64,000 nucleotides of DNA from Chromatiales bacterium (lineage in GTDB: Bacteria > Pseudomonadota > Gammaproteobacteria > UBA6429 > Thiohalophilaceae). The stretch spans positions 1 through 64,000 of the forward strand of contig JALSSV010000019.1 of the NCBI GenBank assembly GCA_026984045.1. Direction: 5' to 3'. The notes under the pieces were generated by a model that saw only the letters and a program-made list of their open reading frames with translations, did no database searches and was not told the DNA's origin. The position numbers and the translations under genes were made by a program. This document shows, piece by piece, positions 7,744 through 24,344 of the stretch; the stretch's first letter is position 1, and every line of letters begins with the position of its first letter.

Positions 7744-9126
7744 TTATACACGCTTCCGGTTCCGGCAGGAACGCACGAAGGCCACGAACCGGCCGGCCCA
7801 GTGGTTGTGGGAAGTGTCCCGCAGGTGGGCATAACCGGCCAGCAGATTGCGATAGACGATGCCGTCGTGGTTGCCGTCGACGCCCATCCCGCGGTGAACC
7901 CGGTAGGCGTAGCGGGTCTCCTCGGGGAGGGAGTCCAGGGCCGAGTAATGGAATTCGTGGGCCGGGAAAATCCGCTGGTTCGGCGCGCCGGGCCAGGGGT
8001 GGTCGGCCGTTTCCTCGAGCTGAACGTAACCCCGGCCCACGGGCCGTTCGTGCATGACCACGGAGGCAGGCAGCGTGCCGGTCATCTCGGCTTCACGTCC
8101 CTTCCAGCGCAGGCTGCGCGCCAGATACATCAATCCGCCGCATTCGGCATAGGCCGGCAAATCGGCCTCGATGGCCTGGCGGATGGCGGTGCGCATGGCC
8201 CGGTTGGCGGCCAGTTGCTCCATGTGGGTCTCGGGAAAGCCGCCGCCCAGGAAGAGGCCATCGCAGTCGGGCAGACGGCTGTCGGTGAGGGGCGAGAAGG
8301 GCAGCAGCTCGGCACCGGCGGCTTCCAGGGCCTCGAGATCGTCCGGATAGTAGAAACCGAAGGCGGCGTCCCGGGCGATGGCGATGCGCACGTCCCGGCG
8401 GGCAGCGGGCTCGGGCCCGGCGAACTGGCTGGACGGCAGGGGCGGGGCGCTGCCCGCAATGTTCCGGATGGCCTCCAGATCGACCTGGGCGGCAATCCGC
8501 TCGCCGATGTGCGCGACGAAGGCGCGGGCATCGCCGCTCTCGTTGCTCGGCACCAGGCCCAGATGACGCTCGTGGATGGTCATGGCCGGGTCGTGATAGA
8601 CGGCGCCGACCACCGGCACCTCGGTGTAGTGTTCCAGCACGGCACGCAGCTTGGCCTCGTGGCGGGAGCCGCGGATCTGGTTGAGAATGATGCCGGCGAT
8701 GCGCACTTCCGGCTCGAAGGCCTGGTAACCGAGCACCAGGGGGGCGATGCCCCGGGTCATGCCCTGGACGTTGATCACCAGCACCACCGGGGTCCGGGTG
8801 AGGCGGGCGAGGGCAGCGTTGCTGTTGCTGCCCTCCAGATCAAGGCCGTCGTAGAGCCCCTTGTTGCCCTCGATGAGCGCCAGATCGGCATGACCGGCGT
8901 GTCGGTTCAGACTGGCGAGGATCTCTTCCCGTTCCTGGGTGTAGAAATCGAGGTTGTAGCAGGGCCGACCGGCAGCCAGGCCCAGCCACATGGGATCGAT
9001 GTAGTCGGGGCCCTTCTTGAAGGGCTGGACCGTCTGGCCCCGATCCCGCAGGGCGCGACACAGACCGATGCTGAGCGTGGTCTTGCCAGAGGATTTGTGC
9101 GCAGCGGAGATCAGCAGTCGGTGCAT
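7744..9126 (-). CDS. dsrN: DsrN, siroheme amidase (CbiA-like)
   Basis: The 460-aa enzyme resembles cobyrinic acid a,c-diamide synthase. It has an N-terminal P-loop (AAHKSSGKTT, residues 9-18), the GPDYIDP motif, and a C-terminal class I glutamine amidotransferase domain with nucleophile Cys329 in AECGGLMYL and a late HEFHYS histidine. It is thought to amidate siroheme to siroamide for DsrAB. I chose the ATG at 9126 because the longer start at 9159 falls inside a 28-bp perfect palindrome. Confidence 0.92.
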   Translation of the reverse strand: MHRLLISAAHKSSGKTTLSIGLCRALRDRGQTVQPFKKGPDYIDPMWLGLAAGRPCYNLDFYTQEREEILASLNRHAGHADLALIEGNKGLYDGLDLEGSNSNAALARLTRTPVVLVINVQGMTRGIAPLVLGYQAFEPEVRIAGIILNQIRGSRHEAKLRAVLEHYTEVPVVGAVYHDPAMTIHERHLGLVPSNESGDARAFVAHIGERIAAQVDLEAIRNIAGSAPPLPSSQFAGPEPAARRDVRIAIARDAAFGFYYPDDLEALEAAGAELLPFSPLTDSRLPDCDGLFLGGGFPETHMEQLAANRAMRTAIRQAIEADLPAYAECGGLMYLARSLRWKGREAEMTGTLPASVVMHERPVGRGYVQLEETADHPWPGAPNQRIFPAHEFHYSALDSLPEETRYAYRVHRGMGVDGNHDGIVYRNLLAGYAHLRDTSHNHWAGRFVAFVRSCRNRKRV

Positions 9127-9144
9127 GGCGGGGATCCCAAAATG

Positions 9145-9172
9145 CGAAAGGGGATGCATGCATCCCCTTTCG
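9145..9172. promoter_or_regulatory. Perfect 28-bp palindrome between dsrP and dsrN
   Basis: CGAAAGGGGATGCA is followed at once by its exact complement, giving a 28-bp perfect palindrome 18 bp before the dsrN ATG. In the dsr mRNA it would form a 14-bp stem with a minimal loop. The minus-strand flank continues GCATTTTGGG, a weak U-tract, so it could attenuate transcription, mark an RNA-processing site, or bind a dimeric protein. Confidence 0.75.
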
Positions 9173-9198
9173 TACGGAGTCAGACCGGTGGCGAGCCG

Positions 9199-10404
9199 TT
9201 ACTTGTGGTGGGGATCCACCACTTCGTCAGCCAGACTTTCCGGCAGGAACTGCAGTACCTTCAGGGCTAGGGCCACGATGATCAGGGCCACCGCCATCCC
9301 GCCGATGCCAAGCACGAATTCCACCAGGCTGGGGGTGTAACTGTTGATGATGCCGTCGGAGAAGCTGCTGGCCACTTCCTTGCCCGGGAAGATGAGCAGC
9401 GGATAGGCCTGGCCGCCGATGATGATGACGTACATGGCCGCCAGTCCGCCCAGCACGACCAGGACGGAGGCAAAGCCGATGAGGCTGCGATTCCTGCCCC
9501 AGCTGGGATGGTAGAGGATGGCCAGGGGCACCAGGCTGCCCAGCAGCATCCAGCCGATCCAGAAGAGTTGGGTATAGACGCCACCGTTGAGCAGGATGAA
9601 GGCTTCAACGCCGTGGTACTGGGTGATGTAGAGCTTGGTCAGGTGATAGGCCAGCAGCAGGAGCAGGGTACCGGCCACGAACACCCCCAGCAGATTCTTC
9701 AGTCGCCGCAGCAGCGCGTCGCCCAGCGGTCGGCCGGTCCACTTGCAGGCGGCCATGGTCACGAGGATCAGGATTGCCAGGCCAAAGGCGAAGGACATGA
9801 CGATGAACAGGGGGGCCATGATGGCTTCGTTGTAGGCCAGACGGGCCACCAGGAAGCCGAAAATGGAGCCGGTACCGGTGGTGAGAATCAGACGCCAGAC
9901 GAAGGCGCTGAAACCGGCGACCTTGGTGTACTGGGTCTTGGTGGGATCCATCATGGTCCACAGGTAGATGGCCACCAGGAGGAAGAAGCCATTGTAGAGG
10001 ATGATGTTCCAGGCGAAGATCGACTTGAAGTTGTAGTAGGTCATGGCCACGATGAGCCGGTCGGCGCGGCCGAGATCCAGCACCAGGATCGTGAGACCGC
10101 CGGCCAGCAGCGCGATGGCCAACAGACCGGAGAGCCGGGCCAGGGGCTTGTAGGCGGTCTTGCCGAACACCGAGGCGATGGAGGCGGTGTTCAGGGCCCC
10201 CGAGGCGGCCACGATCAGGAAGACCGCGAACACGTGTGGGGTCCCCCAGACGATCTGCTGGTTCATGCCGGTGATGAAGTGGCCGTAGTGTTCCATCATG
10301 AACGCGGCAACCAGACCGGCACCGGCAATGGCGCCGAGTAGTGCCAGCAGGGCAAGATAGCCTGCGCTGTTCCCCTTGATGGTGCTGTAGCGGATGTTTT
10401 TCAT
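9199..10404 (-). CDS. dsrP: DsrP, NrfD-type quinone-interacting membrane subunit
   Basis: The 401-aa polytopic protein belongs to the NrfD/PsrC family, with about ten hydrophobic helices spread along its whole length. It is the second membrane anchor of the DsrMKJOP complex and exchanges electrons between the periplasmic DsrJ/DsrO side and quinone. A GTG at 10413 in frame could also start it; neither start has a strong Shine-Dalgarno site, so the N-terminus is uncertain by three residues. It follows dsrO by 24 bp. Confidence 0.94.
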   Translation of the reverse strand: MKNIRYSTIKGNSAGYLALLALLGAIAGAGLVAAFMMEHYGHFITGMNQQIVWGTPHVFAVFLIVAASGALNTASIASVFGKTAYKPLARLSGLLAIALLAGGLTILVLDLGRADRLIVAMTYYNFKSIFAWNIILYNGFFLLVAIYLWTMMDPTKTQYTKVAGFSAFVWRLILTTGTGSIFGFLVARLAYNEAIMAPLFIVMSFAFGLAILILVTMAACKWTGRPLGDALLRRLKNLLGVFVAGTLLLLLAYHLTKLYITQYHGVEAFILLNGGVYTQLFWIGWMLLGSLVPLAILYHPSWGRNRSLIGFASVLVVLGGLAAMYVIIIGGQAYPLLIFPGKEVASSFSDGIINSYTPSLVEFVLGIGGMAVALIIVALALKVLQFLPESLADEVVDPHHK

Positions 10405-16013: not shown

Positions 16014-16053
16014 GCTACTGTTCCCTCTATCTGTGAAATCGGGTGTTGTGGTT

Positions 16054-16088
16054 GAAAATGTGGGGAGCCGGAGCTCCCCGCCATTTTC
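16054..16088. promoter_or_regulatory. Stem-loop between dsrC and dsrM
   Basis: GGGGAGC (16062-16068) pairs with GCTCCCC (16073-16079) around a 4-base loop, and the stem is extended after a small bulge by GAAAATG/CATTTTC. On the transcribed (minus) strand no U-run follows, so it is not a classical terminator. It fits a processing or 3'-protection hairpin that would raise the amount of upstream dsrABEFHC mRNA over dsrM and later genes. Confidence 0.7.
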
Positions 16089-18753: not shown

Positions 18754-20010
18754 TCAGCCGGCAGCCTGTTCGGCCTTGCGGGCAAACCACTTCTCGGCTT
18801 CCTCGTCCCAGCCGTCCATGCGGACGTAGGAGGACTGGCGCGGGTTGTTGACCATGTGCGGATCCACTTCGACGCCGATGCCTTCGAGGAAGTTGACCAG
18901 GCCGATGCGCTCGATCATCTCACCGGTACGCTCGTGCTCGAGCGCGTTCTCGGCAAAGAAGTCGATGACCTCTTCGGCCAGTTCGACCAGGCTCTCGTAG
19001 TCCTCTTCGGTTTCCAGCTTCTTGAAGGGCACGATGACGGTCCCCATCAGGTCGCCGATCTTCAGGGTGCGCTTGCCGCCGATGAGGATGGTGACGCCCT
19101 TGTCGTCCCCCGGGGAGAGGGCCTTGTTCATGACGTTCAGGCAGTGCATGCAGCGCACGCAGTCATGGTTGTTGACGTCCAGGGTGTCGTCGTCGTTCAG
19201 GGTCATGCACTGGGTCGGGCAGCGGGTGATGACGTTGTCGATCACGTACTGACGGCCCTTGGCCTCGATGAACTTCTTGACTTCGTCCTGATCGATCTTC
19301 ATGTCGTCACGCCAGGTGCCGATGACGGCGAAGTCGGAACGCTCGATGGCGTTCTGGCAGTCGTTGGGGCAGCCCGAGACCTTGAACTTGAATTTGTAGG
19401 GCAGGGCCGGACGGTGCACGTCGTCGGTGAAGTTGTTCACCAGCCAGCGCTGGATGGCGTGCTCGTTGGCGCAGGACTGTTCGCAGCGGGCGGCACCGAC
19501 GCAGGACATGGCGGTACGCACGCAGGGACCGGCACCGCCGAGGTCCCAGCCGTATTCGTTGATCTCGTCGAAGAAGTGCTGGGTGTTTTCGGTGGTGGTG
19601 CCGATGAACATGATGTTGCCGGTCTGGCCGTGGAAGGTGATGAGGCCGGAACCGTACTTCTCCCAGCTGTTGGCCAGCTGGTTCAGCATGTCGGTGGTGT
19701 AGTAGTTGCCGGCGGGCGGCTGAACGCGGAGGGTGTGGAATTCCTTGGACTCGGGGAAGGCATCGGCGACTTCGGAGAAACGGGGAATGATGCCGCCGCC
19801 ATAGCCGAAGACGGAAACGGTGCCGCCTTTCCAGTAACCCTTGCGGGTTTCATAGGAGTGTTCCAGCTGACCGAGCAGGGAACCAACGGTTTCGTTGATG
19901 CGCGGATCCGGATGCTGGTCACGCAGGCGCTTGAAGCCGGAGATGAAGCTGGGCCAGGGACCCTTTTCCAGCTCGTCCAGCATCGGGGTGTCATGAATCT
20001 TCTTCGCCAT
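18754..20010 (-). CDS. dsrA: DsrA, alpha subunit of reverse dissimilatory sulfite reductase
   Basis: The 418-aa subunit, usual for the family, has the siroheme-[4Fe-4S] motifs CX5C (Cys170-Cys176) and CX3C (Cys214-Cys218) and an inserted ferredoxin domain (Cys264, 268, 284, 287, 290). It is the first gene of the operon; AAGGAGAA a few bases before the ATG is the best ribosome site in the run. The upstream region holds a NarL-like palindrome about 160 bp from the start codon. Confidence 0.97.
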   Translation of the reverse strand: MAKKIHDTPMLDELEKGPWPSFISGFKRLRDQHPDPRINETVGSLLGQLEHSYETRKGYWKGGTVSVFGYGGGIIPRFSEVADAFPESKEFHTLRVQPPAGNYYTTDMLNQLANSWEKYGSGLITFHGQTGNIMFIGTTTENTQHFFDEINEYGWDLGGAGPCVRTAMSCVGAARCEQSCANEHAIQRWLVNNFTDDVHRPALPYKFKFKVSGCPNDCQNAIERSDFAVIGTWRDDMKIDQDEVKKFIEAKGRQYVIDNVITRCPTQCMTLNDDDTLDVNNHDCVRCMHCLNVMNKALSPGDDKGVTILIGGKRTLKIGDLMGTVIVPFKKLETEEDYESLVELAEEVIDFFAENALEHERTGEMIERIGLVNFLEGIGVEVDPHMVNNPRQSSYVRMDGWDEEAEKWFARKAEQAAG

Positions 20011-20446
20011 GGCATTCTCCTTGAGGGGTTAGCCGTTAAGCCTTGGGTTGAATCGAAAAACCTTGCACATCCCGCCGCGGCGGAATGCGACGTATCCGAG
20101 TTGCTGCGAAGTCTAGGGCGGCCGGAAAAATGTGACCACCTTCCTCATGGGGGAGTGGGGCGTATCCCCTTATCCCCAATGGGGTATGGTCGACCCCGTC
20201 CGGATTTTCGTCCTGCCTCCGCCGGCAAGCCCCGCCGGCCGTATCACCAGCAGGATATACCGTGCGGGGACAGGCCGTGTTTCAATCCCCGTCCGCAAGC
20301 GGCCCGGCCGACGCCCCCTTGAAACGGGCGGCGCCGGTGCCCATGAAGCCTAGTTGAACTTGCGGCGTTTGCCAATCCCTAGTAATTTACTCAGGAAAGC
20401 CGCGCAAACTGTGGGCGTATTCTACTCGGGGCCGCCAGGAAAGCAA
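20011..20446. other. Divergent control region between dsrA and the TauD-like gene
   Basis: This 436-bp gap holds no gene I can support. It contains the heptamer palindrome listed separately. Neither a convincing dsrA promoter nor one for the plus-strand cluster was identified; a possible dsrA -10 box (TAGACT on the minus strand near 20113) has only a weak -35 partner (GGTCAC). Confidence 0.6.
20163..20186. promoter_or_regulatory. Candidate NarL-type operator (7-2-7 plus a third heptamer)
   Basis: TATCCCC (20171-20177), two bases, then TGGGGTA (20180-20186) form an inverted 7-2-7 arrangement like the NarL consensus TACYYMT-NN-AKRRGTA, with mismatches. A further TATCCCC direct copy lies at 20163-20169. 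It stands about 155-175 bp upstream of dsrA. The adjacent regulator has a NarL-like recognition helix. Binding is inferred. Confidence 0.45.
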
Positions 20447-21358
20447 ATGTCCGATCCGTCAGTCCATTCCGTCCGATTTGCCGGGGGCTCGCCCTTCGAT
20501 CCCGACGCCGGCGATGCATGGCGCCGCTGGCGGGATGCAAAGCTGGCCGGCTATCCGGCCAGTGCCGCCGATCTGCTGGTGGAAGTGCGCGACGGCTTCC
20601 GCCTGCGCGAGAGCGAGCTGGCGGCCCTGCGGGATCGGGTGCGGCGCGCCGGTTTTGCCCTCTACCAGGTCCCGGCCCGTCAGGCGGAGGACAAGAGCCT
20701 GGTGCGGGCCATCGGCCGGCAACTCGGCCTGCGGCGCCTGGATGGCAACCTGTGCGCCGACGAGGACAACATCACCGCGCTGCGGGTGACGGACGCGGGC
20801 CGGCAGCGGTTCTACATTCCCTACACCGACCGGCGCCTGAGCTGGCACACCGACGGCTATTACAATGCGCCGGCGCAGCGCATCCGGGGGATGGTGCTGC
20901 ACTGCGTGCGGCCGGCGGCGCGGGGCGGCGAGAACCTGCTGCTGGATCACGAGATGGCCTGGCTGGATCTGCGCCAGCGCGATCCGGACCTGGTCCGGGC
21001 CCTGATGCATCCCGCGGCCATGACCATCCCGCCCAACGTGGAGAACGGGGTGGAGATCCGCGGGGCGCTGCGTGGCCCCGTGTTCAGCGTGGACGCGGGC
21101 GGCGCCCTGCACATGCGCTACACCGATCGCACCCGCAGCATCGCCTGGCGGGACGACGCGGCCACGCGTGCCGCCCGCGAGCGCCTGCGGGCGCTGCTAC
21201 ACAGGGATTCCCCCTGGATTCTGCGTCACCGCCTCGAGCCGGGGCAGGGCGTGCTGAGCAACAACGTGCTGCACGCCCGCACCGCCTTCGAGGACGATGA
21301 CGGCCCGGGCCGCCTGCTGTACCGGGCCCGCTATTACGACCGAATTGCCGAAACCTGA
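20447..21358 (+). CDS. TauD/TfdA-like Fe(II)/2-oxoglutarate oxygenase
   Basis: The 303-aa product has the facial triad HxD..H (His134 and Asp136 in WHTDGYYN; His276 in NNVLHARTAF) and the 2-oxoglutarate Arg293 (LLYRARYYD). It is the jelly-roll dioxygenase family that hydroxylates and cleaves small organosulfonates, betaines or similar; the substrate here is unknown. AGGAAAG before the ATG at 20447 decides this start over upstream ATGs. It opens a plus-strand cluster divergent from dsrA; the next gene begins 16 bp later. Confidence 0.85.
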   Translation: MSDPSVHSVRFAGGSPFDPDAGDAWRRWRDAKLAGYPASAADLLVEVRDGFRLRESELAALRDRVRRAGFALYQVPARQAEDKSLVRAIGRQLGLRRLDGNLCADEDNITALRVTDAGRQRFYIPYTDRRLSWHTDGYYNAPAQRIRGMVLHCVRPAARGGENLLLDHEMAWLDLRQRDPDLVRALMHPAAMTIPPNVENGVEIRGALRGPVFSVDAGGALHMRYTDRTRSIAWRDDAATRAARERLRALLHRDSPWILRHRLEPGQGVLSNNVLHARTAFEDDDGPGRLLYRARYYDRIAET

Positions 21359-21374
21359 GCCGGGAGGCCAAGAC

Positions 21375-21563
21375 ATGCTGTATCTGAGCGAACTGTTGTT
21401 GCAACGGCACGATCTGGAGAATTTCGAGGAACTCTGCCAGGCGGTGGCCGCCAAGGCCCGGGAGGGCGAGATGTTCTTCCGCATGGACGTACGCCCGCCG
21501 TTTCCCGACACCCCCGAGGACTGGGAGGAGCGCCTCGAAGCGCGCTTCACCTCGGCCCGCTGA
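21375..21563 (+). CDS. Conserved-looking 62-aa protein of the orphan Cas6 cluster
   Basis: This small acidic protein starts MLYLSELLLQRHDLENFEEL and includes PPFPDTPEDWEERLEARF near its end. It has no signal peptide, membrane helix or cysteine. GGGAGG stands before its ATG, and it sits between the oxygenase (16 bp) and the Cas6-like gene (14 bp), so it is very likely translated and co-transcribed. I do not recognise a family. Confidence 0.75.
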   Translation: MLYLSELLLQRHDLENFEELCQAVAAKAREGEMFFRMDVRPPFPDTPEDWEERLEARFTSAR

Positions 21564-21577
21564 GCGGAGGTGGCGGC

Positions 21578-22267
21578 ATGAGTGATCAGAACCTGTTCTG
21601 GAGCGAGGATCGGGACGAGAAGGAAACCTGGCAGGTCCCGGATCGGGTCCAGGACGTGATCTTCCGCATCGAGTGCAAGTCCATCCCCCAGGAACACGCC
21701 CATCTGCTGGCCGAGGCCCTGCAGCAGGCCCTGCCGTGGCTGGCCGACGAGCCGCAGGCCGGCATCCATCCGCTGCTCGGCGCCGAGTCGGGCAACGGCT
21801 GGGAACGGCCGGATACGGAAATCCTCTACCTTTCGCGCCGTCAGCGCCTGACCCTGCGTTTGCCGAAGACCCGCCTCGAAGACGTGCGGGCCCTGGTGGG
21901 ACAGACGCTGGACATCGGCGGCCATCCCCTCAAGGTGGGCGAGTTCACCACCCGCAAGCTCAGCGATCTGCCGACCCTGTTCGCCAAGGGCGTGATCAGC
22001 GAGCCGGGGCAGAGCGAGAGTGATTTCCTGCAGGCCGTGGCCGAACGCCTCAAGGCGCTGGACATCCGGATCCGCAAGATGCTGTGCGGCAAGGAGGGCC
22101 AGATCGTCGTGCCCGACGGCATCCTGCACACCCGGTCCCTGATGCTCGCGGAGCTGGACAGGGAGGAATCGGTGCGCCTGCAGGAGGCGGGGATCGGCCC
22201 CGGCCGCCAGTATGGCTGCGGCCTGTTCCTGCCCCAGAAGGACATCAAGCCGGTCCGCCCCGACTGA
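21578..22267 (+). CDS. Orphan Cas6/Cmx6-like RNase-fold protein
   Basis: The 229-aa protein has the layout of the Cas6/Cmx6 family seen in type I-MYXAN CRISPR systems: a first ferredoxin-like half with EHAHLLAEALQQALPWL (candidate catalytic His40/His42), IHPLLG, LSRRQRLTLRLP, and a C-terminal glycine-rich RNA-binding loop GIGPGRQYGCGLF (about 205-217). Cas6 proteins cut RNA next to hairpins. There is no CRISPR array or any other cas gene in this window, so it must work on other RNA or be a non-nuclease relative. It is co-oriented with the oxygenase and 62-aa genes. Confidence 0.78.
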   Translation: MSDQNLFWSEDRDEKETWQVPDRVQDVIFRIECKSIPQEHAHLLAEALQQALPWLADEPQAGIHPLLGAESGNGWERPDTEILYLSRRQRLTLRLPKTRLEDVRALVGQTLDIGGHPLKVGEFTTRKLSDLPTLFAKGVISEPGQSESDFLQAVAERLKALDIRIRKMLCGKEGQIVVPDGILHTRSLMLAELDREESVRLQEAGIGPGRQYGCGLFLPQKDIKPVRPD

Positions 22268-22385
22268 GCCGACCCTCCCGGTGGGGATATTGCCTCTCGC
22301 CGTGGATCGGGTTTAATTGCGCCCGTTCGAATTTTTGCAACCTTTCGTTTCCGGGGCCCGGCCCCGCATCCAAGAGGAAATCGAC

Positions 22386-22727
22386 ATGTCCTTTGAATTC
22401 AATGGCAAGACCATCGAAACCACCGAAACCGGCTATCTGGTCGATCCCAACGACTGGACCGAGGAGATGGCCCAGTACCTGGCCGATCAGGAAGGCCTCG
22501 GCGAGCTGACCGAGCGCCACTGGGACATCATCAACTACCTGCGTGACGAGTACTTCAACAACAACCAGAACCAGCCCAACGAACGCGCCATCCTCAAGGC
22601 CATGAGCAAGAAGTGGGGCCAGAAACTGGCGCAGAAGGACACCTTCGCCCTGTTCCCCAAGATGCCTTCCAAGCAGGGCGGCAAGGTGGCCGGGCTGCCG
22701 GAAAGCCGGCGCAAGGGCGGCTACTGA
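22386..22727 (+). CDS. Cysteine-free DsrC/TusE homologue (RspA type)
   Basis: The 113-aa protein aligns along its length with DsrC (MSFEFNGKTIETTETGYLVDPNDW start, ERHWDIINYLRDEYF middle, KVAGLP near the end), but the C-terminal arm reads KQGGKVAGLPESRRKGGY: both redox cysteines are replaced and no Cys is present at all. Such proteins have been grouped as RspA, proposed to be regulatory. GAGGAAAT before the ATG at 22386 supports the start over 22317. It could compete with DsrC for DsrEFH, DsrAB or DsrK. It follows the Cas6-like gene by 118 bp. Confidence 0.9.
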   Translation: MSFEFNGKTIETTETGYLVDPNDWTEEMAQYLADQEGLGELTERHWDIINYLRDEYFNNNQNQPNERAILKAMSKKWGQKLAQKDTFALFPKMPSKQGGKVAGLPESRRKGGY

Positions 22728-22849
22728 TCCCGGGATAGCCTTATAGACCAAAGTGGATATGGCCAGCCCGTGCGGCCACTGCTAGATTTGCCGCCACGGA
22801 TTTCCGGTCCACCCGTTTTCCATATACCTTTAATATACAGGGGCAGAAA

Positions 22850-23059
22850 ATGAGCGAAAAAGCCAAACTGATCCAGGAAATGCTCGAATTGCAGAAGAAG
22901 TTCATGGCATACGAGCACGAGCACGGCGTGACCGCCGAAGAATACTACGTGCCGAAGGAAGGCCACCCGCTGCACGGCTACCGTGAGCGCTATGCCGAGC
23001 TGGCCGACAAGGTCAACGCCCTGGCGCACGCGGAAAAGGGCTCCAAGCGCTTCTACTGA
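22850..23059 (+). CDS. Small charged 69-aa protein downstream of the RspA-type gene
   Basis: The protein is highly charged and helical (KAKLIQEMLELQKKFMAYE, then ERYAELADKVNALAHAEKG), with an EEYYVPKEGHPL turn between. This looks like a two-helix coiled coil. It has no Cys and no signal. AGGGGC precedes the ATG and a clear terminator follows 21 bp after the stop, so it is a real gene. I do not recognise the family; an FeS or cofactor role cannot be read from it. Confidence 0.8.
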   Translation: MSEKAKLIQEMLELQKKFMAYEHEHGVTAEEYYVPKEGHPLHGYRERYAELADKVNALAHAEKGSKRFY

Positions 23060-23080
23060 GATTCCCTTCGCCGGGACGAA

Positions 23081-23110
23081 AAAGGGCCGCTATGCGGCCC
23101 TTTTTATTTG
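23081..23110 (+). terminator. Rho-independent terminator
   Basis: AAAGGGCCGC and GCGGCCCTTT form a 10-bp stem around a 3-base loop, followed by TTTATTTG. It closes the plus-strand cluster that starts with the TauD-like gene. Confidence 0.92.
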
Positions 23111-23251: not shown

Positions 23252-23926
23252 TCATGTCTCCGCCCACATCCGCACCAGGTTCACGTAGGCCACGTCCACC
23301 CGTTTGGTCTCCGGCTCCTCGGGGCGGTGTTTGAGCAGGCTCTCGCGGGCCTGGTTGAGCTCGTAGAGCAGTTCCCGGCGGGCCGGATCGCGGACCATGC
23401 TCTGGGCCCAGGTCACGGCCACCAGGCGCTCGCCGCGGCTCACCTCGGCCACGTGGTGGAGGCTGGAGGAGGGGTAGACCACGGCGTGCCCTGCCGGCAG
23501 CTTCACCCGTTGATCGCCGAAGGGGGTGCGCACCACCAGTTCGCCGCCGTCGTATTCGTCCGGTTCGCTGAGGAACACGGTGGTGGATACGTCGGAGCGG
23601 TAGCGGCCCTGGGGCGGCCCCATGACCGGATCGTCCACGTGATCGCCATAGGTCATGCCGGGCGCGTAGCGGGCGTAGAAGGGGCTGGCGACCTTCAGCG
23701 GCAGCACCGCCGACTGGTAGACGGGATGCTGCACCAGGCTGCCCATGACGATCCGGTTGAGGGGCTGGATGAGCCGATCCTCCGGCCCCAGTTCCTCGTT
23801 GTGCTTGACCCGCCTGGCCGCCTTGCCGGCGGACAGGCGGCCGTCGATGAAGCGGCCGCGGGCCAGGAGATCGCGCACCTCGCGAAGCTGCTCGGGGCGC
23901 AGAACGGCGGGTATTTCCAACAACAT
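23252..23926 (-). CDS. PKHD-type Fe(II)/2-oxoglutarate hydroxylase
   Basis: The 224-aa protein matches the YbiX/PiuC family: HxD at His96/Asp98 (YGDHVDDPVM), distal His157 (SSSLHHVAEV) and Arg167 (RGERLVAVTW), with the family landmark YDGGELV and length near the usual 225. It is a cytosolic oxygenase often linked to iron uptake; its substrate is not known. It converges with the Cas6-like cluster and is divergent from the 111-aa gene at 24009. Confidence 0.92.
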   Translation of the reverse strand: MLLEIPAVLRPEQLREVRDLLARGRFIDGRLSAGKAARRVKHNEELGPEDRLIQPLNRIVMGSLVQHPVYQSAVLPLKVASPFYARYAPGMTYGDHVDDPVMGPPQGRYRSDVSTTVFLSEPDEYDGGELVVRTPFGDQRVKLPAGHAVVYPSSSLHHVAEVSRGERLVAVTWAQSMVRDPARRELLYELNQARESLLKHRPEEPETKRVDVAYVNLVRMWAET

Positions 23927-24008
23927 TGCTCAGGTACTCATCGGCGACGGTTCGCGCTAGAATAGCACAGCGAATTTCCCCAACCCCTTTTCTGATCTGG
24001 AGCCTGGC

Positions 24009-24344
24009 ATGATTCTCAACGTCGTCGTCGATGGAAACACCTTTCCCGTGGAAGTCCCGGATCACCTGGTGCGGGAGGCCGGCGAGTTCTTCGACAAGAT
24101 CGATGCCGACATGGACAAGGGCTATCTCGTCGGCCGCGAGTGGGTGGACAACCCCAGCCTGGAACACCGCGTGCAGGTGGTGGCCGACCGCATGCTCACC
24201 GCCATGGAGACCGAAAACGAATCCATGCGCGTGATGATGGCCGCCTACATCCTCAACCGCGTGCCCGGCATCAAGGGCGTGCGCGTCGCCACCGATGGCG
24301 ACATCATGGAATCGGAGCTGCTGATGGATCTCTCCCAGTTCTGA
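24009..24344 (+). CDS. Conserved-looking 111-aa protein of unknown function
   Basis: The protein is acidic and cysteine-free. It starts MILNVVVDGNTFPVEVPDHL, has a Met-rich helix (VVADRMLTAMETENESMRV) and ends EDLLMDLSQF-like (ELLMDLSQF). AGCCTGGC stands before the ATG and the codon use fits the genome. A weak -10 box (TAGAAT, 23958-23963) lies upstream. I do not recognise the family and the neighbours do not suggest a role. Confidence 0.72.
   Translation: MILNVVVDGNTFPVEVPDHLVREAGEFFDKIDADMDKGYLVGREWVDNPSLEHRVQVVADRMLTAMETENESMRVMMAAYILNRVPGIKGVRVATDGDIMESELLMDLSQF

Follow-up and report, generated by a model that had tools for sequence, protein, structure and literature searches.

Cas6 enzymes cut RNA at the 3′ base of hairpins. 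In Haloferax volcanii, Cas6 matures the non-CRISPR small RNA (sRNA) s479, which controls zinc transport genes, providing a precedent for a Cas6-matured regulatory RNA that governs metabolism genes; that enzyme comes from a working CRISPR (clustered regularly interspaced short palindromic repeats) system and the sRNA carries a handle like that of CRISPR RNAs (PMC8155600), whereas the Cas6 described here stands apart from CRISPR. Closest to it by family are the Cas6/Cmx6 proteins of type I-MYXAN systems, and by structure the Cas6 of a type I-B CRISPR-associated transposon (CAST). Our subject is a 229-aa Cas6-like protein encoded in a stretch of 64,000 nucleotides from a Chromatiales bacterium (positions 1 to 64,000 of contig JALSSV010000019.1, assembly GCA_026984045.1), hereafter the window, where its gene is the third of five plus-strand genes divergent from dsrA; the others encode a TauD-like dioxygenase, a 62-aa protein (p62), the DsrC homologue RspA and a 69-aa protein (p69). 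We found that the protein is a true member of the Cas6 family and that, unlinked to CRISPR, it is a near-universal companion of the dsr genes in Gammaproteobacteria. These findings suggest that bacterial energy metabolism makes use of an RNA cutter of the CRISPR type.

The original prediction had placed the 229-aa protein (21578..22267, plus strand) in the Cas6 superfamily from the sequence alone, and both profile searches and the fold agree with this assignment. The protein matches PF09559, for which the cut-off is 26.7 bits, with 202.8 bits (E = 6.5e-60) and TIGR02807, the type I-MYXAN Cas6/Cmx6 model, with 126.3 bits against a cut-off of 98.85, and all 49 tested orthologues of the dsr-linked Cas6 (49/49) match TIGR02807 as well. 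When solved structures were searched by sequence, the type I-B CAST Cas6 8fcj was retrieved (E = 9e-11), alignable over residues 24-221. An AlphaFold (AF2) model built from 49 orthologues reached a predicted local distance difference test score (pLDDT) of 90.8, and Foldseek placed it nearest to the same CAST Cas6 (8fcu/8fcj, template modelling (TM) score 0.78), followed by Pyrococcus Cas6 and Cas6e. The best matches of the model in the PDB are thus all Cas6 proteins, consistent with a predicted tandem ferredoxin-like Cas6 fold. The CAST protein works in Cascade-TniQ, and none of those genes is found at the dsr cluster.

A sequence-level comparison of 133 dsr-type homologues with six other Cas6 proteins, five from CRISPR loci and one encoded on a Gloeobacter plasmid that has no further annotated cas gene, shows that 131 of the 133 retain the candidate catalytic His40, which lies where helix 1 begins and aligns with histidine in all six others. 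The C-terminal glycine-rich loop GxGxxRxxGCG, which reads GIGPGRQYGCG in the window, is also kept, with G205, G207, G213 and G215 each present in at least 131 of the 133. The type I-MYXAN proteins share with the dsr-linked Cas6 the family, the helix-1 DH motif and the loop in the form GxGxxRxxGCGxF; they differ in that the dsr-linked Cas6 has neither adjoining cas3, cas8, cas7 or cas5 genes nor an array, is single copy in dsr genomes, and carries features restricted to the dsr type, namely R88 (133/133), W75 within the insert AESGNGW (AESGNGWxR), K167, (H/Q)K221 and an N-terminal MFW motif. Confidence in the AF2 model is low in this insert and in the MFW tail, as might be expected of segments that fold upon binding a partner or RNA. 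One branch with support of 100/95 separates the dsr-type proteins from the other Cas6 in a midpoint-rooted tree, which does not tell which of the two groups is ancestral.

The distribution of the protein was assessed in 369 evenly sampled Gammaproteobacteria genomes from more than 270 genera, in which a true DsrA was defined by a best E < 1e-30, a threshold that we placed where the list of scores shows a gap. The figures hold for Gammaproteobacteria in the GTDB sense, and the phylum-wide PF09559 search drew that class alone and says nothing beyond it. A Cas6-like orthologue was present in 118 of the 369 genomes, DsrA in 119 and both in 111, that is, Cas6 was found, in single copy in each, in 111 of the 119 dsrA-bearing genomes versus 7 of the 250 without dsrA (both, Cas6 only, DsrA only, neither: 111/7/8/243; odds ratio = 482; Fisher p-value = 7e-75, a kind of p-value that genome relatedness inflates). 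The relevant side of dsrA is a contig edge in six of the eight genomes with DsrA only, and in one of these six (G159) TauD, p62 and a tetratricopeptide repeat (TPR)-like gene are visible as far as the contig edge. Several of the seven Cas6-only cases likewise lie at contig edges, and in one a dsrA fragment adjoins the cluster. Genomes of 1.0-1.1 Mb retain the whole gene set. We regard it as almost certain that a member of the Cas6 family here serves a dsr function outside CRISPR.

The same genomes show no significant association of Cas6 with Cas1 (51/67/85/166 in the same order; odds ratio = 1.5, p-value = 0.08). A CRISPR remnant, or a Cas6 acting in trans on arrays elsewhere in the genome, would agree with the score above the NCBIfam type I-MYXAN Cas6 cut-off and with the presence of a CRISPR array in the genome; this explanation is already contradicted and is extremely improbable, given the cas1 counts, the retention in 1-Mb genomes, the conservation of the dsrA-side position across families and the fact that the array belongs to a separate type I-G system, which encodes a Csb2 (a Cas5-6 fusion) of its own. 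The full type I-G locus, with an array of 18 repeats, lies on another contig of the same genome (L182, G000:C13:80000-99999; array 8243-9527) and comprises Cas4g/Cas1g, Csb2, Csb1, Csx17 and Cas3g; some segments of its array appear duplicated. The statement in the original prediction that no array or other cas gene is present therefore stands for the 64-kb window as far as tested, where a repeat array was looked for and none was found, and falls for the genome, while its broader inference that the cluster is not a CRISPR system is now supported more strongly, by the cas1 counts and by the Csb2 of the genome's own type I-G system. In the roughly 100 loci in which gene order was examined, the type I-MYXAN companions cas3, cas8a1/cmx1, cas7 and cas5 were never found beside the Cas6-like gene, whose neighbours are instead dsr, TauD, p62, RspA and p69. 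A weak Cas8b match of p62 (E = 0.03) was treated as chance. A further Cas6/Cmx6-family gene, the Gloeobacter one used in the comparison above, was observed on plasmid pGMOR1 of Gloeobacter morelensis (L212, 4845-7043) beside a gene with a 3′-phosphoadenosine-5′-phosphosulfate (PAPS)-reductase domain and genes for hypothetical proteins and, lacking other annotated cas genes, is possibly a second non-CRISPR context of the family.

Conservation of the five-gene set beside dsrA extends to many genera, and an adjacency peculiar to this genome is ruled out by the recurring order in relatives. In 82 of the 111 genomes no more than 8 kb separates Cas6 from dsrA, mostly with divergent orientation. The order dsrA <-> TauD-p62-Cas6-RspA-p69 is shared by the majority of the family's genomes and recurs in many further families, far more often than chance would produce; among named sulfur oxidisers it was seen in Thiohalobacter thiocyanaticus, Thiothrix lacustris, T. 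fructosivorans and Thioalkalivibrio denitrificans, and the cultured strains T. thiocyanaticus Hrh1 and T. lacustris DSM 21227 both carry the cluster. In more distant families the order becomes dsrA <-> Cas6-RspA-(rhodanese)-TauD. Several lineages have an additional gene for a 235-aa protein between p62 and Cas6, a homologue of which is encoded elsewhere in the genome of the window. This 235-aa family has no Pfam match (L104:9297-10004, L141, L147; C6:7635-8285 in the window's own genome); in one locus (L251, 6262-6969) its gene overlaps the start of an RNase D-like gene, and in other lineages the family is encoded elsewhere.

The variants of this neighbourhood separate the set into a tighter and a looser part. 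The family-less p62 (21375..21563, plus strand) is the closest companion of the Cas6-like gene: it was found in 106 of the 369 genomes, 105 of which carry Cas6, and it accompanies Cas6 even where the two are unlinked (G359, G145, G261). In Beggiatoaceae (Marithrix, Parabeggiatoa, Thiomargarita) the p62-Cas6 pair lies away from dsr with neither TauD nor RspA adjoining, and in G359 and G145 a lone Cas6 stands next to rnc (RNase III), with p62 and the 235-aa gene in a separate region. Such arrangements would suit an explanation in which RspA, as a competitor of DsrC, and TauD, as an organosulfur or protein oxygenase, do the sulfur work, and Cas6 and p62 are an unrelated RNA-processing pair sharing a promoter region. 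We consider this unlikely; in the sample, Cas6 and p62 are found almost exclusively in genomes that bear dsr, G359 and G145 among them, and their function is therefore still dsr-dependent. Because of these neighbourhood variants, the retention in small genomes and the near-confinement of p62 to Cas6-bearing genomes, the data point to Cas6 and p62 as a functional core that depends on dsr itself and not just on position. The five-gene unit of the original prediction thus holds as a conserved set but is too wide as a core, with Cas6 and p62 being the tightest pair and TauD, RspA and p69 frequent though inconstant companions. The AF2 model of p62 has a pLDDT of 90.6 and found no fold match when compared with the PDB, making p62 a candidate for a compact new fold. 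In loci where Cas6 is unlinked from dsr (L202:9666-11044, L203), we also observe that it is divergent from rnc-era and adjoins a thioredoxin-like gene, with an ArsR-type regulator nearby.

Fold scans across the cluster and the dsr operon gave signals confined to the region after p69, where the terminator lies, the region after dsrC, and partly the dsrA-dsrB junction. The dsrA leader contains hairpins in some genomes and none common to them, that of the window being no better than shuffles, and an Rfam scan returned nothing above gathering scores. The most conspicuous candidate for an RNA substrate is a hairpin 3′ of dsrC and before dsrM (16053..16088, minus strand; window fold z = -2.6): hairpins with stems of 8 bp or longer, no more than 70 nt from the stop codon, occur in 53 of 86 loci versus 7% of shuffles, with a mean z of -2.2, and the 53 include 38 different loop-proximal arms at the same place. 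Since Cas6 enzymes habitually cleave at the 3′ base, the protein could cut here and so yield a stable monocistronic dsrC mRNA and set the excess of DsrC over DsrMKJOP. We find this quite improbable, for the stem sequence is more variable than a fixed Cas6 site would be, and intercistronic hairpins of this type also act as ordinary stabilisers or attenuators, which is probably what the hairpin does for dsrC mRNA. Furthermore, two reduced genomes that carry Cas6 (L205, L206) lack the hairpin and a third (L204) has a weak AU-rich one; its absence from Cas6-bearing small genomes led us to reject it as a universal substrate, and it is not a specific marker either. Hairpins of this kind, GC-rich and with strongly varying stem sequence, were observed after dsrC in most dsr operons (e.g. 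L040, L041, L042).

On balance we favour a Cas6 that is dedicated to dsr and works through the processing of cellular RNA, and we think it fairly probable that the protein is an active RNase; that its main target lies among the dsr transcripts is a near-balanced question on which we lean slightly towards doubt. Several observations weigh against cleavage. Neither the hairpin scans nor the cluster junctions yielded an RNA substrate common to all Cas6 carriers, the Cas6-RspA, TauD-p62 and p62-Cas6 regions showed no unusual structure in the fold scans, and even the dsrC hairpin is missing from L205 and L206. Asparagine replaces His40 in two of the 133 dsr-type proteins and occupies the aligned position in the nearest solved relative, the CAST Cas6 8fcj, and a protein that binds RNA without cutting it would be expected to show much the same conservation. 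In some genomes TauD, RspA and p69 are absent or located elsewhere, so that they may not share one mechanism with Cas6. The protein could accordingly be a non-cleaving RNA- or protein-binding scaffold resembling repeat-associated mysterious proteins (RAMP) or RNA recognition motifs (RRM), for example a factor for Dsr assembly or translation control with p62 as a subunit, which would account for the missing universal hairpin, the two orthologues without His40, and the strong conservation of surface-type motifs that lie away from the presumed active site (MFW tail, AESGNGW loop). We judge this scaffold unlikely, in that His40 and the glycine-rich loop are present in nearly all orthologues and all CRISPR-linked relatives, which goes beyond the needs of a pure scaffold.

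In the RNA-processing scheme that we favour, a Cas6 lineage would have been taken into the dsr locus of Gammaproteobacteria and inherited with dsr as a CRISPR-independent component. With p62 bound through the conserved N-terminal MFW tail or the AESGNGW loop, Cas6 would act as a site-specific endoribonuclease on a small number of cellular RNAs, perhaps a single one, with dsr transcripts as the likeliest targets, and cleavage would set the stability or the ratio of Dsr proteins during sulfur oxidation. The dioxygenase would provide an input dependent on O2, Fe(II) and 2-oxoglutarate as a further control element of the same unit, and RspA would be another, occupying DsrC binding sites without reacting. 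The complete picture, in which a domesticated CRISPR-type endoribonuclease is a near-universal RNA-processing control of dsr with p62 as obligate partner and the dioxygenase and cysteine-free DsrC as inputs, is tentative and remains on the doubtful side. Links have been drawn between DsrR and DsrS of Allochromatium vinosum and the post-transcriptional regulation of dsr genes, and these would agree with the proposed role. The control of sulfur oxidation that had been proposed from the sequence, whether post-transcriptional or allosteric, is a possible role that fits everything found.

The open literature that we searched, which leaves subscription journals mostly outside, contained no description of a link between Cas6 and dsr, and the dsr-type proteins constitute a non-CRISPR clade of Cas6 for which we know of no earlier description; nor, to our knowledge, has a Cas6 lineage with a core function in energy metabolism been known. 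Since all 49 tested orthologues match the NCBIfam model, public annotation probably labels the dsr-linked genes as CRISPR genes, and such "type I-MYXAN Cas6" labels are misleading and can yield false calls of orphan cas6 in CRISPR surveys. If the proposed role is correct, this would be a clear instance of housekeeping duty in a protein family known from CRISPR, the gene tracking sulfur oxidation with nearly no exceptions, and it would become possible to test directly how a pathway of geochemical importance is controlled after transcription; RNA control of sulfur oxidation, if confirmed, would be categorically new.

Turning to the remaining genes, the five plus-strand open reading frames were all found in the predicted order and at the predicted coordinates. 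Divergent from them lies dsrA (18754..20010, minus strand; TIGR02064, E = 1.3e-191 at C19:18769-19980), with the order dsrABEFHCMKLJOPN on its 3′ side (tblastn). The first gene of the cluster encodes a TauD/TfdA-type 2-oxoglutarate Fe(II) dioxygenase (20447..21358, plus strand; PF02668, E = 6.5e-21), the nearest solved relative of which is TmpA (6npb). Its iron triad H134-x-D136...H276 and the 2-oxoglutarate-binding R289 are at least 95% conserved in 72 relatives and, because these ligands are kept, it is probably an active oxygenase. It shares the ligands with the TmpA/gamma-butyrobetaine-type dioxygenases of PF02668 but falls far below the equivalog cut-offs, scoring under every one in NCBIfam.

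RspA (22386..22727, plus strand; PF04358, E = 9.4e-33) shares the fold motifs of DsrC/TusE and is a clear member of that family, and the window protein contains no cysteine, bearing out its earlier description as a cysteine-free DsrC homologue. Unlike DsrC, which ends in GC(V/I), it lacks the C-terminal cysteines and ends in RRKGGY, with GLPESRRKGGY in the window in place of the DsrC terminus GLPKPTGCV and RKGGY in 50 of 50 relatives; it therefore cannot carry sulfur as DsrC does. Its arm, similar in length and thiol-free, could sit as a dummy in DsrC partner sites. The name RspA and the idea of a possible regulatory role come from the original prediction and general knowledge, and the literature searched gave no description of RspA in this cysteine-free DsrC sense. 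Eight genes of the DsrC/TusE family were observed in the same genome (L001-L008), including RspA and a further copy on the contig of the window at C19:71402-71677.

The last gene encodes p69 (22850..23059, plus strand), a helical or coiled-coil-like protein for which 22 relatives were aligned; family scans found no Pfam or NCBIfam match for either p62 or p69. It is followed at about 23079..23105 by a terminator hairpin of the rho-independent type, AAAAAGGGCCGC-TAT-GCGGCCCTTTTT (fold z = -3.1), an equivalent of which is present in 62 loci with a mean z of -3.5. Of the earlier claim that the five genes run to one terminator, the hairpin after p69 is upheld, but a single transcript is not established because gaps of about 117 nt before RspA and about 128 nt before p69 both contain conserved promoter-like motifs, the block upstream of p69 being promoter/operator-like (ACCAAAGTGGATATGG).

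Between dsrA and the cluster lies a palindromic operator-like site, TATCCCCAATGGGGTA (20171..20186), of the form TAYCC-N6-GGRTA, which is perfect in 67% of 70 intergenic regions between dsrA and TauD versus 0.3% of shuffles; an earlier model, TATCCC-N5-GGGATA, had the wrong spacing, was weak and was replaced. Because the palindrome is shared between dsrA and TauD, one regulator probably acts on both dsr and the cluster. Degenerate copies occur upstream of p69, and the entire 2.98-Mb assembly contains two sites, the one in the window and one at G000:C67:32559-32574, which may mark a further gene of the same regulon.

Beyond the cluster, at window positions 23252-24344, there are genes for a PKHD-type Fe(II) dioxygenase (YbiX-like, minus strand) and for a family-less 111-aa protein, which are syntenic in many relatives. 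Finally, a contig titled as a metagenome-assembled genome of a "Halobacteria archaeon" (L130, JABDRC010000157.1) bears a gammaproteobacterial dsr-Cas6 cluster and is probably mislabelled or contaminated.

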